The notes beneath the pieces are model-generated. The model saw only the letters and a list, made by a program, of their open reading frames with translations. It was not told where the DNA came from and made no database searches. From the NCBI GenBank assembly GCA_003211135.1, contig QCTN01000005.1:1-64000 (forward strand): 64,000 nt of DNA. Reading direction: 5' to 3'. This DNA is from Prochlorococcus sp. AG-673-L20. Lineage in GTDB: Bacteria; Cyanobacteriota; Cyanobacteriia; PCC-6307; Cyanobiaceae. The position numbers were made by a program, and so were the translations under genes. This document shows, one piece after another, positions 13,690 through 62,703 of this stretch (position 1 is its first letter; the number at the start of each line of letters is the position of its first letter).

Positions 13690-16131
13690 ATGACTAAGGA
13701 AAAATTCACTTCTATATCGTTGCAAGAAGAAATGCAACGTTCCTATTTGGAATACGCAATGAGCGTGATAGTAGGACGTGCTTTACCTGATGCTAGAGAT
13801 GGCCTTAAACCAGTCCAAAGAAGGATACTTTTCGCAATGCATGAATTAGGACTTACTCCAGATAGGCCATTCAGAAAATGTGCCAGAGTGGTTGGCGATG
13901 TACTAGGAAAATACCATCCTCATGGAGATCAAGCAGTCTACGAAGCACTGGTAAGATTAGTTCAAGATTTTTCTACAAAATATCCAACTCTTGATGGTCA
14001 TGGGAATTTTGGATCGGTTGATAATGATCCGCCAGCTGCAATGAGATATACAGAGACACGTCTAGCGCCTATAGCTAATGAATGTTTTCTTCAAGAAATA
14101 GGATCTGAAACGGTAAGTTACTCAGATAATTTTGACGCTTCACAACAAGAACCAGATATATTGCCAGCACAGTTACCCTTTTTATTATTAAATGGTTCCT
14201 CAGGAATTGCTGTTGGTATGGCAACAAATATTCCTCCACACAATTTAGGTGAAATAGTTGATGGTTTAATTGCTCTAATAAACGATAAAGAAATAAGCGA
14301 CTTAAGATTATCAAAAATAATATTAGGACCTGATTTTCCAACTGGAGGAGAATTAATTAGCAATGATGCAATGAAAGAAGTGTACCAACGCGGAAAAGGA
14401 TCTGTAACGATAAGGGGTGTAATTAAAAATGAAGAGATTAATTTGGGAAAAGGGAAGCACAAAAGAAATGCGCTTATAATTTCGGAACTTCCTTATCAAA
14501 TAAGTAAAGCTGGATGGATAGAGAAGCTTGCAGAATTAGTAAATCTAGGAAAAATTGAAGGTATATCTGATATTAGAGATGAAAGTGATAGAGAAGGTAT
14601 GAGGATAGTAATTGAATTAAAAAAAGATTCAAATCCTGAAATTATAATATCAAATTTGTTCAAAAAAACGGCATTACAATCGAATTTTGGTGCAATATTT
14701 TTAGCTTTAGTTAATGGTAAACCTGTTCAACTTACTTTACGAAATTATTTAAATTATTTTCTAGAATTTAGAGAAGAAACTATTCGAAGAAGAACAAATT
14801 ATTTTTTAAAAATTGCATCAGAAAAACTTACAATTTTAGAAGGTTTTTCAATAGCAACTAAAAATATAAAATATATTATTGAGATTATTCAAAAATCAGA
14901 AAATGTAACTGAAGCCAAATCAATATTAATGCCCAAACTAAACCTGAGTAATAAACAAGCAGATGCAGTTTTAAGTATGCCTCTAAAAAAATTAACAAAT
15001 TTAGAAAGGAAGCAAATAGAAATTGACATGAAAGAATTACTCGAGAAGAAGAAATATTTTAATAATCTACTAAATAACAGGAGATTATTGCTTGAAACTT
15101 TAATTGAAGAATTGAAGCATTTAAAGAAAAAGTTTCATGTAAAAAGAAAAACAAAAATCTTGAAAGATATCAATCAAGCAAAAGAGTTAGATACTATAAA
15201 TAATCAAATTTTGGAAGATCTTATAAATAAAGAAACAAAAATATCAATAGATAATAGGTTTTATTTGAAAAAAATAATTATAAATAATTATAAAAAATTA
15301 TTAGATCATGAAAATAAATTTATAGATAATAAAAATGTTCAAAAGTTTGTATGTAAAATCTATAAAAGTTTAAAAATTATTGGAATTACGTCTTCCGGAA
15401 AAATTCTACAGATTAATTGGAAATTAAATATAAATACTGACTATAAACTGGATAAAAAAGTTTTAGGAAATATAGATCCACTAGAAATAATAAATTTTCA
15501 TGATCTAGATAGTAATCTAAGAAATTATTTATGCATTTTGAGTTCAGATGGAAGATTTAAAAAAGTATTATTTGATGAAGATATGATAAAGAGTACTAGG
15601 ATATTTTCAATTGCAAAATTAAAAAATTCTACAAATATTATTGATTCATTTATTTACAGCGAAGGGCAACAATTAATTGTATTAACTTCTATTGGTAGGC
15701 TCTTTAAATTTGATTTATCTAATAAATACTTAAACCCAAGTACAAAACAATCATTAGGACTATTATTGGTTAATCTTTTACCTACAGAAAAAATAGTTTC
15801 TTGTTGTAAAAGCAAAGGTAAAGATATCCTTTATTTAGTTTCTAAAAAAGGGAGGTTTTTTAAATTGAAAGTTGATGAAATTTATGATTCTTATAATTCT
15901 AAATTAGGTTATGTAAATGAGCGAATTCAGCTTAAAAATGACTATTTTATGAAAGTTTTTTCTAATAATCAATATATTGATATTGAGACAAATAAAAATA
16001 AATCTGCAAGATTAAACTTAAACAAATTAACAACTAATTCTGGCAAAAATATTCTTAAAGTAGATTTTTTGAATCTAGAAAAAGATGAATATCTTGAAAA
16101 TTGTTCACGACTAGAAAATTATATAAATTAA
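13690..16131 (+). CDS. gyrA: Type II DNA topoisomerase subunit A (gyrase or topoisomerase IV)
   Basis: Breakage-reunion subunit of an ATP-dependent type II topoisomerase (813 residues). The N-terminal half is typical: [36 protein letters not shown] (residues equivalent to E. coli S83 and D87 are Q81 and E85) and active-site tyrosine Y120 in AAMRYTE. The C-terminal half is Lys/Asn-rich and divergent. It has beta-pinwheel-like repeats such as [11 protein letters not shown] and [10 protein letters not shown], but I see no GyrA box (QRRGGKG-like), so wrapping gyrase activity is uncertain and it could be ParC-like. It ends tail to tail with purF, sharing TTAA. Confidence 0.85.
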
Positions 16132-20688: not shown

Positions 20689-21846
20689 TTAAGAACGAAC
20701 TTGAACGGGCATAACTAAATATGTAAAAGAATTAATATTATCTTCTGGAACTAAAACAGCTGGAGTAGTAGCAAGATTACATTTAAAAATCACATTTTCA
20801 CTTGATATAACTTTTAAACCTTCTAATAAATACCTTACATTAAAAGCTATATCAAATTGATCAAAATCAAAAGATACAGGAACTAATTCACTGGCGTTTC
20901 CTATATCTTGAGCATCGGCACTAACCAAAGCTAAATCCTTTTCCTCTAGCTTAATCTTAACAACACTACTTTGTTGGTCTGCTAAAACTGCTATTCTTTC
21001 AAGCGACTCGATAATTTTTTTTGTGTTAAAAGTAAAAAGTTTCGTAAAATTATCAGGTATTAATTGAGCATAATTTGGATAAGAACCTTCAAGAGTTCTA
21101 GTAGTAATTATTTGATTAGAAGAAATAAATACAACTTGACCTTTATCATAAAAAAGTTTAATTGAATTTTCAGAACTTTTAAGGCTAACAAGCTTTTCAA
21201 TTTCTCTTAAAGATCTTGTTGGAATAGTAACTGATAAGTTTTCTTCATTAGGAATAATATCTTCTTTTTCATCAAAATTTTCTTTATTATCAACTAAGAC
21301 AACAGCCAATCTATGACCATCTGTAGCAGCTGACTCCAAATATTTTAAATTAAATGTAAAATTGACACCCGTAAGTAATTGCTTTGAATCATCACTACTA
21401 CTAGCAAATATAGTTAATTTTAAAGCTTTTAAGAAAGAACTTGGATCAATATTCAAAGAAGTACCACTTTCAACAAACGGTAAGCTGGGGTAATCGTCTG
21501 ATGGAATACCTTTAATGTTAAAAGAACCTCTATCACTTTTAATTAAAATATTATCAGAACTCTCATCGACATTAAGAGAAACAGGAGTTTCACTTGGTAA
21601 CTTATTAACTATTTCAGATAAAAGTTTTGATGGAACAGTAATTGCACCACTTTTTTTTACAGTTGCATCAAATGAAGTTTGTATTCCTAAATTCAAATCA
21701 AATCCAGTTAAACTAATTTTGTTAGTACCTTGATCAGCTGTGAGAAGTAAATTTGCAAGGATTGGATGCGTAGGCCTTGAAGCAACTGCCTTACTAACTA
21801 ATTGAATAGCATAATTAAATTCATTTTGATTACAAGCAATCTCCAT
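20689..21846 (-). CDS. dnaN: DNA polymerase III beta subunit (sliding clamp)
   Basis: Ring-shaped processivity clamp of the replicase. The 385-residue protein has the three-domain clamp layout, with ASRPTHPILANLLLTA in domain 1, FASSSDDSKQLLTGVNF in domain 2, and ending in TYLVMPVQVR at the hydrophobic groove that binds replication partners. It is transcribed leftward, away from the AT-rich gap at 21847-22191. dnaA is not adjacent, which is common in Prochlorococcus. It heads the run dnaN, PRC-barrel protein, purL, purF. Confidence 0.97.
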   Translation of the reverse strand: MEIACNQNEFNYAIQLVSKAVASRPTHPILANLLLTADQGTNKISLTGFDLNLGIQTSFDATVKKSGAITVPSKLLSEIVNKLPSETPVSLNVDESSDNILIKSDRGSFNIKGIPSDDYPSLPFVESGTSLNIDPSSFLKALKLTIFASSSDDSKQLLTGVNFTFNLKYLESAATDGHRLAVVLVDNKENFDEKEDIIPNEENLSVTIPTRSLREIEKLVSLKSSENSIKLFYDKGQVVFISSNQIITTRTLEGSYPNYAQLIPDNFTKLFTFNTKKIIESLERIAVLADQQSSVVKIKLEEKDLALVSADAQDIGNASELVPVSFDFDQFDIAFNVRYLLEGLKVISSENVIFKCNLATTPAVLVPEDNINSFTYLVMPVQVRS

Positions 21847-21978
21847 CTAAATTCATAACTTTATTTACATACTAGAGCCATTTTCTTAATTATTGCAATT
21901 TAAAAAAATTTTTTAAATGTTCTATTCTTCTAATAGATATTCTTTCTTATTAAAAATTTATCTAGTAGTAGTAGTGTC

Positions 21979-21996
21979 TGTGGAAACTGTGGAAAA
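21979..21996 (-). promoter_or_regulatory. Two abutting DnaA-box-like 9-mers
   Basis: TGTGGAAAC (21979-21987) and TGTGGAAAA (21988-21996) are direct repeats with no spacer; read on the minus strand they are GTTTCCACA and TTTTCCACA. The second matches the box usually given for cyanobacterial DnaA. They flank the most AT-rich part of the gap. Confidence 0.65.
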
Positions 21997-22041
21997 AAGC
22001 CAATATAGATTGTTTTATTTGATGATTAACAAAAATAAGTT

Positions 22042-22050
22042 GGTGGAAAA
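22042..22050 (-). promoter_or_regulatory. DnaA-box-like 9-mer
   Basis: GGTGGAAAA on the plus strand, TTTTCCACC on the minus strand: one mismatch to TTTTCCACA. Same orientation as the pair at 21979-21996. Confidence 0.45.
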
Positions 22051-22160
22051 AAAATCGTGAATGTTGATTATTTTGAAATAATAAAAATTTTCCCTAAAAC
22101 TATTAACATTTTTGTTGTATTTTAGACAGTTATTCAACAGTTTTATGCTTGTTTTAAACT

Positions 22161-22169
22161 GTTTCCACA
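22161..22169 (+). promoter_or_regulatory. DnaA-box-like 9-mer, opposite orientation
   Basis: GTTTCCACA on the plus strand, identical to the minus-strand reading of the copy at 21979-21987 and so inverted relative to it. It lies 22 bases from the thrC stop. Confidence 0.55.
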
Positions 22170-22191
22170 GTCACTTTTATTTTTGGTTTGG

Positions 22192-23295
22192 TCAGTAGCC
22201 CAAGATTTTTGATATGTTTTTTAACGAAGGTTCAATATTTTTTTGGAATATAGCATCATTATTCTTAATTGCACAATCTGGATCTTTTAATCCATTACCT
22301 GTTAAAACACAAACTATTATTGATTCTTTTTTTATTCTGTTTTTATTTTTAACAAGTCCTGCTACTGATGCTGCGCTTGCCGGTTCACAAAAAATACCTT
22401 CATTTGCAAGCATCTTATAAGCTTTAATAATTTCTTCGTCAGTTACAGACTGAAAATCCCCTTTACTTTCTTTCTTAACCTTTTTTGCCTTATCTCTATT
22501 TACAGGATTTCCAATTCGAATAGCTGTCGCAATCGTTTCGGGATTCTGAACTATAATATTTTTTACTAAAGGTGCAGATCCCTCAGATTGGAATCCCATC
22601 ATGATTGGTAATTCTAAATTTTTTATTATTTTTGAATATTCTTTAAAACCTAACCAATAAGCTGTTATGTTACCGGCATTGCCCATTGGTATGCAAAGCC
22701 AGTCAGGTGCAAAGCCTAAGTCATCTACTATTTCAAAGGCCGCAGTTTTTTGACCTTGTATACGGTAAGGATTAATAGAATTTACAAGATTTATTGGATA
22801 TTCTGAAGATAACTCTCTAACAATTTCTAAAGCTTTATCAAAATTGCCCTGTATAGAAACGATCTCTGCTCCATACATTAGAGCTTGAGCAAGTTTACCT
22901 TGAGCTACATATCCATCTGGAATGAGTACATAAGATTTTAAACCACCTCTTGAAGCATAAGCAGCCGCAGCTGCAGAAGTATTTCCTGTACTAGCGCATA
23001 TTACTGCTTCACTTCCTTCTTCTTTTGCTTTACTTATTGCCATTGTCATTCCTCTGTCTTTGAAAGAACCTGTAGGATTAAGACCGTCATATTTTAAATA
23101 AACTTTTGAATCGTTTCCAATTAGGTTACTTATTGAATTACTGAAAATAAGAGGAGTATTCCCTTCATTCAAAGTTACAATGGGAGTTTTAGATGACACA
23201 GGAAGATGCTGCTTATATGCATTGATTAATCCTGGCCATCTTTTTTTTCTATAGTTAAAAGAAAATTTGTTTTTAATTCTATTTAATATAGACAT
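22192..23295 (-). CDS. thrC: Threonine synthase
   Basis: PLP enzyme converting O-phosphohomoserine to threonine. The 367 residues match the short bacterial type. The PLP lysine is K79 in TGSFKDRGM; other fold-type II marks are [18 protein letters not shown] and the phosphate-binding [23 protein letters not shown] lies near the C-terminus. It follows the DUF1400-like gene by 6 bases on the same strand, so the order ABC1 kinase, DUF1400-like protein, thrC may form one transcript heading toward the origin. Confidence 0.96.
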
Positions 23296-23301
23296 AATAA
23301 A

Positions 23302-23874
23302 TTAATTGTTTTTGATTTTTTCTAAGGGCTTGCTAGTGAAAAATTCTAATAATTCAGTTATTGATTCTACTTTATTCATTACTTTACTTAAAGCGTTTAC
23401 GTTTAAAATAACTGTTTTAGTTGGATAACTTTCAAAAAAACTTACAAGATTTATCTTACCGTTCCCAGTATATAAACTTTTTATCAGACTCGATCTTAGG
23501 GCTAACATACCTGTTCTTTCGTCATTTGTTCTAGGGGTATGAATTATAGATGATAGTCTACTTAAAATGACATTACCTATCTCCGAATATACCAAGTTAC
23601 TTGCGATAGTTATGGGCACTTCAAAATTTCTATTTAATACTGATCGTATTTCATCATCGGAAGATCCAGTTGCTTTTAAAATTCTTTTTAACGTCTTTGA
23701 TGAGTTACCACCTTCAGCGAAATTTTTTAAAGAATCGACTTTTATTGTTCTTGAAAATATACTGTATATAATTTTTATTTCTTCTGCAGATTGAGCTTTA
23801 GGGGTATTAAAAAAAATTTGATTAGTAAATAATATTAAAACTATTTTAGGGATTAAAATTTTCGAAAACTTCAT
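23302..23874 (-). CDS. Secreted DUF1400-domain-like protein without hydrolase domain
   Basis: A 190-residue protein with an N-terminal signal peptide (KFSKILIPKIVLILFTNQIFF, cleaved near residue 28). The rest resembles the DUF1400 module that precedes an alpha/beta hydrolase in larger cyanobacterial proteins: IIYSIFSRTIKVDSLKNFAEGG, then LNRNFEVPITIASNLVYSEIG and IIHTPRTNDERTGMLALRSSL. No GxSxG nucleophile elbow or hydrolase half is present. It starts directly after the ABC1 kinase stop with no gap. Function is unknown; the domain call is from memory and moderate. Confidence 0.7.
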   Translation of the reverse strand: MKFSKILIPKIVLILFTNQIFFNTPKAQSAEEIKIIYSIFSRTIKVDSLKNFAEGGNSSKTLKRILKATGSSDDEIRSVLNRNFEVPITIASNLVYSEIGNVILSRLSSIIHTPRTNDERTGMLALRSSLIKSLYTGNGKINLVSFFESYPTKTVILNVNALSKVMNKVESITELLEFFTSKPLEKIKNN

Positions 23875-25731
23875 TTATATTGTTGCGCCAGCAGCAATTT
23901 TTACTAGTCTTACTACGCTTTTTTCTGTAACTTTTTTCACTATTTTAAAACTCATTTCTTTTGTATAGGGTTCGTTTATAAGTCTTGGAACTCTTTTCAG
24001 AAAGATATCAATAGAATAACCTGGTATTTTTTGTATGATTTCTAAAAAGTTTTTGAATGGTTCAATAGATAAGATTAAATTATTTATATTATTATTTTCT
24101 TTAGAAATATTTAATTTTATTGATTTTGGAAGGTAATTATTGACGCTCTTTAATACTTTTAAACCTATCAAATCTATTTGATTAGTTAAACCATTAATAA
24201 TTTCATTTCTCAGAAATCCACCTTTTTGGGAAAAAAGAAGATTTATAACTTCATCAAGAAGCTTTTCTAAATCAAGATTCGTTTGTTTTGCCGCATTAGA
24301 AAGCAAATCTTCTAATCTATCCCATTTAAATTGTTTTTTATCAAAAAGCATTTCTTTTAAACTTTCTCTTAGTTGAGGATCAGGGTCTTCCATTAACCTT
24401 CTTGCAAAATATGGATAAGCTGCACCAAGTATTTTAAAGTCAGGATCTACGCTTAAAGCAATTCCTTCTAAAGTCAGTAAAGATCTAATTATTAGAGCAT
24501 AATATGGAGGTAACTGAAAGGGAAATTTATACATCACACCTGACATGTCGTCAGTTACACTTTTAAAATCCATTTTTGATACACCAAGTTCTACTGCATT
24601 TACAAATACTTCCTGGAAAGCTGGGACAATTGGTTCAAGATTAACTTCTTTTGAAAGGAAACCTAACTTAACAAAATCTTGAGATAACTTATCAAAATTT
24701 TTATTTACAAGATGAACTACTGCTTGAATTAAACCAGATCTTGAGGTTCTAGTAACTTCACTCATCATACCGAAATCTAAATAACATAATCTTCCATCCT
24801 CTAAAGCTAATAAATTTCCTGGGTGTGGGTCAGCATGAAAAAAACCATGTTCTAACAACTGCTCTAAACTGCATTGCACTCCAATTTCTATCATTTTATC
24901 AGGATCAATACCTAATTTTTTAACACCATCAAGATTTGTTAGCTTTGTTCCATCTATCCATTCCATAGTTAATACTCTTCGCGACGTAGTTTCTTTATAA
25001 ATTTTTGGCACAGCAATTTTTGAGTTATGTAGATGTAAACTTCTAAATTTTTCAGCATTTTCAGCTTCATTTAAATAATCCATTTCTTCAAATACTCTCT
25101 TTCCTAATTCATCAATCAAAGCAACAAGATCACTTCTTATGAGGCCAATATTGTTTTTTAACCAATTAGCAATATTCCTTACTATGTACAAGTCAAGTGT
25201 GATTTGTTCTCTTAAACCTGGTCTTTGAACTTTTACAGCTACAATTTCATTATTTTTAAGGACCGCTTTATGAACTTGTCCTAAAGAGGCTGCAGAAATG
25301 GGCTCTTTATCGATAGTCAAAAAAATCTCATCAATTTTTTTGTTTAAATCTTCTTCTATTAATTCCATAGCTTTATTTCCATCAAATCCTGGTAATTGAT
25401 CTTGAAGTTCAGATAGCTCCTCAAGAAGAACAACAGGAATGATGTCTGGTCTAGTGGATAAAGCTTGCCCTGCTTTAACGAATGCAGGCCCTAATTTAAC
25501 TAACAAATTTGTTAGTTGTTTTGCCCTAAATCTCGCTTTTGATTCTTTTTTTAATTGTCCTGTTAACTTATCCCAACCAACTGAAATAATATATATAAGT
25601 ATCGGGATTAGTGTTTGCCAAAGTCTTTTGAATAGTCGTTTAGGATTTTTTTGATAAATTTTTGAAATTATTTCAGGATCGTATTTTAGTAATCCTGATG
25701 CTTCTATAAAATCTGTATAGTCTTCATTCAT
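23875..25731 (-). CDS. ABC1/UbiB family protein kinase-like protein
   Basis: Atypical kinase of the UbiB/COQ8 group (618 residues), linked in cyanobacteria and plastids to prenylquinone and thylakoid lipid metabolism. Diagnostic motifs are KAGQ at 86-89 (VKAGQALSTRPD), the Ala-rich loop SAASLGQVHKA at 146-156, nucleotide lysine K167 in AVKVQRPG, HGFFHADPHPGNLL near 295 and the metal-binding LDFGMM. A hydrophobic patch near 41-52 may touch the membrane. It is divergent from recN across about 70 bases. The physiological substrate is not known. Confidence 0.9.
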   Translation of the reverse strand: MNEDYTDFIEASGLLKYDPEIISKIYQKNPKRLFKRLWQTLIPILIYIISVGWDKLTGQLKKESKARFRAKQLTNLLVKLGPAFVKAGQALSTRPDIIPVVLLEELSELQDQLPGFDGNKAMELIEEDLNKKIDEIFLTIDKEPISAASLGQVHKAVLKNNEIVAVKVQRPGLREQITLDLYIVRNIANWLKNNIGLIRSDLVALIDELGKRVFEEMDYLNEAENAEKFRSLHLHNSKIAVPKIYKETTSRRVLTMEWIDGTKLTNLDGVKKLGIDPDKMIEIGVQCSLEQLLEHGFFHADPHPGNLLALEDGRLCYLDFGMMSEVTRTSRSGLIQAVVHLVNKNFDKLSQDFVKLGFLSKEVNLEPIVPAFQEVFVNAVELGVSKMDFKSVTDDMSGVMYKFPFQLPPYYALIIRSLLTLEGIALSVDPDFKILGAAYPYFARRLMEDPDPQLRESLKEMLFDKKQFKWDRLEDLLSNAAKQTNLDLEKLLDEVINLLFSQKGGFLRNEIINGLTNQIDLIGLKVLKSVNNYLPKSIKLNISKENNNINNLILSIEPFKNFLEIIQKIPGYSIDIFLKRVPRLINEPYTKEMSFKIVKKVTEKSVVRLVKIAAGATI

Positions 25732-32043: not shown

Positions 32044-32222
32044 TCAAATATTTGTGGATCAGAATGAATGATTAATTGATTTTTTTGCGTTTTTTTTAAT
32101 TTAAACCCTTTTTCAGATAATTTTTTTATTAGCTTAGCTGTTTCTTCAAACCGAGAGGCCATTGCATCTAGACTGGCACAGTCACTTGTTAAGCCATCAT
32201 CCTTCCAAGTAAAGAAACTCAT
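31962..32222 (-). CDS. Small conserved-looking hypothetical protein antisense to the spsA end
   Basis: An 86-residue soluble protein starting at ATG 32222, 10 bases after the mraY stop on the same strand. The composition is balanced: MSFFTWKDDGL, a helix around ASRFEETAKLIKKLSEKG, then a beta-like QNQLIIHSDPQIFDQWG-type segment. This looks like a real gene, not an antisense shadow, and it fills what would otherwise be a gap. Its last 82 bases are antisense to spsA. I recognise no family, and no function can be given. Confidence 0.68.
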   Translation of the reverse strand: MSFFTWKDDGLTSDCASLDAMASRFEETAKLIKKLSEKGFKLKKTQKNQLIIHSDPQIFDQWGFISEELPFKQLSLIPDDETIVDF

Positions 32223-33571: not shown

Positions 33572-33625
33572 TTAAAAAAATCTTGATCTATATACCATAA
33601 TACATAAACATGCACTTGAAAAATT

Positions 33626-33829
33626 TTGTTTGATAAAGAAAATTTAAAATATTTTTTTATTTGGCCAATTTCAGTTTTGTTAGCTTTTGCTTTTAAATAC
33701 TATGGCTTTTTAAAGCCAGATGTTTTATTAATTAATAATTATCTTGTACTTTTACTAGTTTTTGGTCCATCACTTGTAGTTACAATAATATTAGTTTTTA
33801 ATAAAATTTTGAAAGTTGAAAGTAATTAA
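33626..33829 (+). CDS. Small two-helix membrane protein upstream of argG
   Basis: A 67-residue reading frame beginning with TTG at 33626. Two hydrophobic segments are seen, about 11-28 (FFIWPISVLLAFAFKYYG) and 38-60 (YLVLLLVFGPSLVVTIILVF), with short charged ends. There is no in-frame ATG. It sits in the gap between the divergent DUF3134 gene and argG, 33 bases before argG. Clean membrane topology argues for a real gene; the unusual start argues against. Function unknown. Confidence 0.5.
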   Translation: MFDKENLKYFFIWPISVLLAFAFKYYGFLKPDVLLINNYLVLLLVFGPSLVVTIILVFNKILKVESN

Positions 33830-33862
33830 GATTTCAGCTTTCTTTACTAGAGGTAAATTTTA

Positions 33863-62631: not shown

Positions 62632-62703
<72 letters not shown>

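Follow-up and report, generated by a model that had tools for sequence, protein, structure and literature searches.

In a study of twelve Prochlorococcus strains, the replication origins identified lie between the genes for the polymerase III beta subunit and threonine synthase and have DnaA boxes close by (PMC2836286, published in 2010), and adjacency to dnaN together with the box TTTTCCACA has been reported for cyanobacteria (PMC6323995, PMC4674748). The origins of S. elongatus PCC 7942 and Cyanothece 51142 lie beside dnaN and carry the same box, and in both organisms dnaA and dnaN are encoded separately (PMC4674748, PMC6323995, PMC7198777). PCC 7942 is credited in these sources with eleven repeats and Cyanothece with three boxes; the locus described here has four boxes with at most one mismatch.

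The basal unwinding system (BUS), a DNA-opening module, has been searched for in origins as a DnaA box with no more than two mismatches, separated by 16 bp or less from three or more DnaA-trios; candidate modules were reported in 1755 of 2070 origins, with 13 bp as the commonest spacer length (PMC8287927). According to the same work, opening of the S. elongatus module by that organism's purified DnaA depends on both boxes and trios, and ATP was not required in that assay; the B. subtilis model uses ATP-DnaA. The B. subtilis module, formed by DnaA-boxes 6 and 7 and the DnaA-trios, is described as two co-oriented boxes, a short spacer, consecutive 3'-GAT-5' trios and an AT-rich region beyond (PMC8287927, PMC10721633).

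The window analysed here is a stretch of 64,000 nucleotides, bases 1-64000 of a 76,888-base contig, in a 1.42-Mb assembly of 54 contigs that is 83.8% complete. In it, the spacer between dnaN and thrC is very probably the chromosomal oriC, with a BUS at its core, of a Prochlorococcus-like genome. The original prediction had placed an origin at this position from the letters of the DNA, and it is supported by the boxes, the trios, their conservation and the strand-corrected skew. The location is already known for Prochlorococcus; the DNA-opening module is the added detail. The features are as follows:

20689..21846, minus strand: dnaN, DNA polymerase III beta clamp (TIGR00663, 318.3 bits, cut-off 137.65)
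21847..22191, no strand assigned: dnaN-thrC intergenic spacer, the whole probable oriC, 345 bp with 80 of 345 bases G/C
21901..21962, no strand assigned: AT-rich stretch after the trios, proposed DNA unwinding element
21963..21974, plus strand: four perfect DnaA-trios, 5'-TAGTAGTAGTAG-3' (3'-GATGATGATGAT-5'), conserved
21975..21978, minus strand: 4-nt spacer GACA between box and trios
21979..21987, minus strand: DnaA box, trio-proximal member of the tandem pair, GTTTCCACA, 1 mismatch, conserved
21988..21996, minus strand: DnaA box, distal member of the tandem pair, TTTTCCACA, 0 mismatches, conserved
22042..22052, minus strand: single conserved box-like element TTTTTCCAC, with the box TTTTCCACC at 22042-22050, putative role
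22130..22140, minus strand: weak box-like element, conserved, CTGTTGAATAA (plus strand TTATTCAACAG), putative role
22161..22175, plus strand: conserved inverted DnaA box adjoining the thrC stop, GTTTCCACA at 22161-22169, putative role
22192..23295, minus strand: thrC, threonine synthase, on the same strand as dnaN and upstream of it (TIGR00260, 318 bits, cut-off 167.1)

The spacer is the longest gap between open reading frames of at least 80 amino acids, although to call it the only long gene-free stretch, as had been done, was too strong, as positions 33572-33862 (291 nt) are also long. Profiles confirmed dnaN and thrC, and the view that the dnaN start stands without dnaA was correct: DnaA is encoded on contig C13 (TIGR00362, 527.1 bits), away from the contig of dnaN. 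Its domains (Bac_DnaA, Bac_DnaA_C and DnaA_N in Pfam) comprise the N-terminal, ATPase and DNA-binding parts, so the genome encodes the ATPase- and DNA-binding-domain DnaA expected where there is an oriC. Just past thrC, positions 23302-23874 encode a DUF1400 alpha/beta hydrolase and 23875-25731 a UbiB-like kinase that scores under the UbiB cut-off. Close to the origin lies also a gyrA/parC-type topoisomerase gene (13690-16131), under both curated GyrA cut-offs and over the general-subfamily cut-off. A search for RNA families across the window gave nothing beyond one tRNA at 62632-62703.

Read on the minus strand toward dnaN, the module runs TTTTCCACA (21996-21988), GTTTCCACA (21987-21979), GACA, CTACTACTACTA (21974-21963) and then AT-rich DNA, and the plus strand, complementary to CTACTACTACTA, carries 3'-GAT-5' four times. 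These 12 bases occur in the window only at 21963-21974. The abutting boxes have 0 and 1 mismatch to TTTTCCACA, the first trio stands 4 bp from the proximal box and 13 bp from the distal perfect one, and all four trios follow the 3'-GAT-5' consensus. By sequence criteria, this arrangement of box, box, 4 nt, trios and AT-rich DNA matches the published BUS. It resembles the B. subtilis module in its two co-oriented boxes, short spacer, consecutive trios and AT-rich flank, and differs from it in that the boxes are of the cyanobacterial type, that all four trios are perfect GAT and that activity is predicted. Relative to the boxes, we take the trios to be on the side where B. subtilis has them. The predicted P. 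marinus origin has the same flanking genes and close DnaA boxes and was located by G/C skew; the passages of PMC2836286 that deal with it contain neither trios nor a BUS, whereas trios are described here. None of the papers searched joined Prochlorococcus with the DnaA-trio; the supplementary tables of PMC8287927 may include Prochlorococcus origins.

Four TTTTCCACA-like boxes, each with at most one mismatch, lie within the 345 bp of the spacer; dinucleotide shuffles gave a mean of 0.24, and none of 2000 reached four. This is the intergenic cluster characteristic of a DnaA-dependent bacterial oriC, and together with the adjacent dnaN and the box TTTTCCACA it corresponds to the dnaN-type origin of cyanobacteria. 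The spacer contains 4 of the 32 one-mismatch sites in the window, and no other stretch of 345 bp has four; its box density is therefore higher than anywhere else in the window, as the prediction of an origin required, and the initial count of at least four box-like 9-mers, with two exactly abutting at 21979-21996, was accurate. The motif shows no excess in the window as a whole (32 one-mismatch sites against 33.8 expected), and the proposed comparison with the genome showed none either, with 19 exact sites against 16 for the reversed control. What stands out is the clustering of the boxes and not their total number. The 60-base block at 21901-21960 does have 7 G/C, exactly as first counted, but this means little taken alone, because it is among 22 clusters of equally AT-rich 60-mers in the window. 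The trio array and its conservation are stronger evidence for an origin than the boxes.

Conservation was assessed by searching 400 genomes of the family for the pattern TTCCACARTTTCCACANNNNCTACTACTA with at most three mismatches. A match, one being listed per genome, was obtained in 130 of the 400 genomes, against 1 of 400 for the reversed pattern used as control, and 270 had none. Within the same genus (68 genomes searched, the source genome counted in), the module was present in 61 of the 63 genomes in which dnaN was hit and in none of the other 5. In one of the two misses (G386) the contig stops 28 bases short of the dnaN start, and in the other (G321) it starts within the module. In all 61 genomes the module lies upstream of dnaN on the dnaN strand, 107-132 bp from the ATG (median 113). 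It was seen in all 30 same-genus loci fetched and was recognisable in all 21 named Prochlorococcus loci, which were found through the window's dnaN at 87-97% identity; in both sets some copies have one or two base changes. An alignment of 22 same-genus spacers showed further conserved blocks at 22161-22175 and 22042-22052 (TTTTTCCAC), TTGTTGAA-like elements at about 22130-22140 and at 22103-22108, and conservation between the module and the dnaN ATG. Five same-genus genomes listed as 93-99% complete (G282, G306, G384, G388 and G399) have neither dnaN nor the origin module, and it may be that assemblies are prone to fragment or lose sequence there.

In other genera, 59 regions upstream of dnaN were picked by dnaN position, and 58 of them carry an element of box, box, 4 nt and CTN scoring at least 26.8 of 35, the maximum among 177 shuffled sequences being 24.4. 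The exception is L173, whose contig starts within the first box; the genome it comes from, G071, matches TTCCACARTTTCCACANNNNCTACTACTA. Of the 59 regions, 36 come from genomes without a match to TTCCACARTTTCCACANNNNCTACTACTA, and all 36 carry a divergent module that scores above all 177 shuffles. Trios such as CTACGACGGCTG are frequent in the GC-richer relatives, with the box-proximal trio retained. In many GC-richer genera, among them those of L054-L062 and L068-L070, the trios become CTACTACGGCTG or CTACGACGGCTG and the boxes TTTCCCCA; the 4-nt spacing is constant there and the box-proximal CTA mostly so.

Strand asymmetry gives a further line of evidence. A plain cumulative G/C skew had been suggested as a check and did not point to the spacer: its minimum in the window lies near 63 kb, because gene orientation dominates the raw skew. 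Third-position skew was therefore computed with gene orientation separated, by regression on the transcription strand, using gene models from a simple longest-ORF choice and, for the source genome, a single contig of the 54-contig assembly. Left of the spacer the plus-strand T/A skew was -0.096 in plus-strand and -0.064 in minus-strand genes, and right of it +0.063 and +0.057; the corresponding G/C values were 0.111 and -0.174 on the left and 0.171 and 0.029 on the right. The suspected plus-strand shift toward G and T on the right is thus real once gene orientation is separated. For third-position T/A the best single break on the contig was at 22006, inside the spacer (0 of 500 gene permutations), which is the change of sign in strand composition expected at an oriC. 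For third-position G/C a break at 32054 (residual 70.1) was marginally better than one at 22006 (70.2), and 0 of 500 permutations reached the best.

The same analysis was extended to three relatives, G152 (the nearest single-contig relative, 1,657,990 bases), G368 and G359, each sampled as twenty 20-kb stretches; because these are about 85 kb apart, the resolution of the fitted origin is also about 85 kb. With third-position G/C, third-position T/A and four-fold T/A, the fitted origin coincided with the module in G152 (0 kb) and fell 14 kb from it in G368 and 10 kb in G359, distances that this resolution allows for. When the order of the stretches was permuted 1000 times, with permuted and observed fits on the same grid, the observed fit was reached, for these three measures in turn, by 1, 12 and 0 permutations in G152, by 0, 0 and 1 in G368 and by 25, 9 and 25 in G359. 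With four-fold G/C sites the fitted origin lay 100 kb from the module in G152 (equalled by 132 of 1000 permutations), 34 kb from it in G368 (0 of 1000) and 10 kb from it in G359, where the fit was not significant (311 of 1000). The fits in G368 and G359 are independent of deposition convention, because these sequences are not rotated to dnaN.

In the three relatives, whose G/C is 0.296-0.315, a replication term of 0.069-0.086 for third-position G/C and of 0.033-0.051 for third-position T/A was found beside the transcription term. From their G/C content, we take these genomes to be probably HL. A weak replication-strand asymmetry is seen in AT-rich, probably HL Prochlorococcus, namely in the window and in G152, G368 and G359. 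PMC2836286 reports that six HL strains show no perceivable strand asymmetry in synonymous codon usage and proposes loss of mutY as a contributor; in contrast, a weak asymmetry was measurable here in AT-rich relatives, correspondence analysis having been used there and regression here.

These data bear on other explanations of the locus. Chance, that is, an AT-rich spacer with fortuitous boxes, might be favored by the lack of a window-wide motif excess and by the abundance of equally AT-rich 60-mers, but no shuffle reproduced the four boxes, and the conservation of the module, with one match listed per matching genome, refutes this explanation, to which we give practically no credence. It is also known that DnaA boxes can regulate transcription. 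The boxes might then belong to a DnaA-responsive dnaN promoter region and the spacer be conserved for transcription control and not as a replication start, as would suit the 107-132 bp that separate the module from the dnaN ATG in every one of the 61 genomes and the additional conservation within that interval. However, DnaA-trios are not required in a promoter, and the switch in strand asymmetry is centred at the spacer on the contig and in three relatives, which makes this explanation very improbable.

Just as improbable, in our view, is that the spacer is a relic or shares its role with other origins, and that replication begins mainly elsewhere. Synechocystis and Nostoc are reported to replicate asynchronously from multiple origins (PMC7198777), and dnaA is here on a different contig. 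Nevertheless, fits of a single origin to third-position skew fell close to the module in all three relatives, and the module is missing from only two of the 63 same-genus genomes that have a dnaN hit and from none of the 21 named loci. A single oriC in the dnaN-thrC spacer remains by far the most probable reading.

If this oriC works as in S. elongatus and B. subtilis, from which we carry the mechanism over to Prochlorococcus, DnaA encoded elsewhere in the genome would bind the tandem boxes at 21979-21996 through its domain IV. A DnaA filament would then grow over the 4-nt spacer onto the plus-strand trios at 21963-21974 and stretch the plus strand, the AT-rich stretch would melt in the direction of dnaN as far as about position 21901, the replicative helicase would be loaded around 21901-21962 and two forks would depart bidirectionally. 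The single boxes at 22042 and 22161, with the weak elements that lie between, likely act as accessory DnaA sites for affinity or timing. Whether the opening step needs ATP is uncertain, because S. elongatus DnaA opened its module without ATP in the published assay (PMC8287927).

A possible further element concerns the unwinding stretch itself. In picocyanobacterial origins a dyad may enclose the AT-rich stretch, with arm 1 overlapping the last trios and arm 2 about 12-40 nt further on. Its pairing would persist although the bases differ from genus to genus, as in a hairpin or an opposed-trio element; the genus of the window would have lost it or would hide it in low complexity. We consider this rather unlikely and treat the dyad as a lead. 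Examples of the arms are CGGCTGTTT/AAACAGCCG in L058 and CTACTAGTTTATTT/AAATAAACTAGTAG in L195, and a dyad can be seen in other-genus regions such as L054-L059, L062, L068, L069, L071, L154, L157, L171, L183, L184, L193, L195 and L196. The tests drew on 130 module-scored sequences, of which 20 were selected as existing pattern matches, while 40 and 19 other-genus regions were selected by dnaN position; L173 was left out, since its contig start led the scorer to misplace the module. In the window's genus (51 sequences, with at least four duplicate records, L080, L081, L094 and L096 being the same records as L003, L004, L006 and L007) own arms paired with a mean of 14.0, against 14.2 for shuffled and 14.3 for swapped arms. 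In other genera (78 sequences) the values were 15.8, 12.4 and 13.9. With one sequence per genus in 33 genera, pairing was stronger between own than between swapped arms (z 3.0, median p 0.01), also with a shorter first arm (z 2.35, p 0.02) and without g5 and g34 (z 2.1, p 0.03); a control pairing the boxes against the AT-stretch gave z 0.37. Base composition shared within a genome could explain part of this signal.

For an abundant marine lineage whose assemblies are mostly incomplete, the origin is here fixed at single-base precision, and its exact coordinates are usable for peak-to-trough estimates of growth, for studies of gene orientation and for origin plasmids. Moreover, as the module of box, box, 4 nt and trios is found once per matching genome, it could serve to tag origins in fragmented single-cell genomes.
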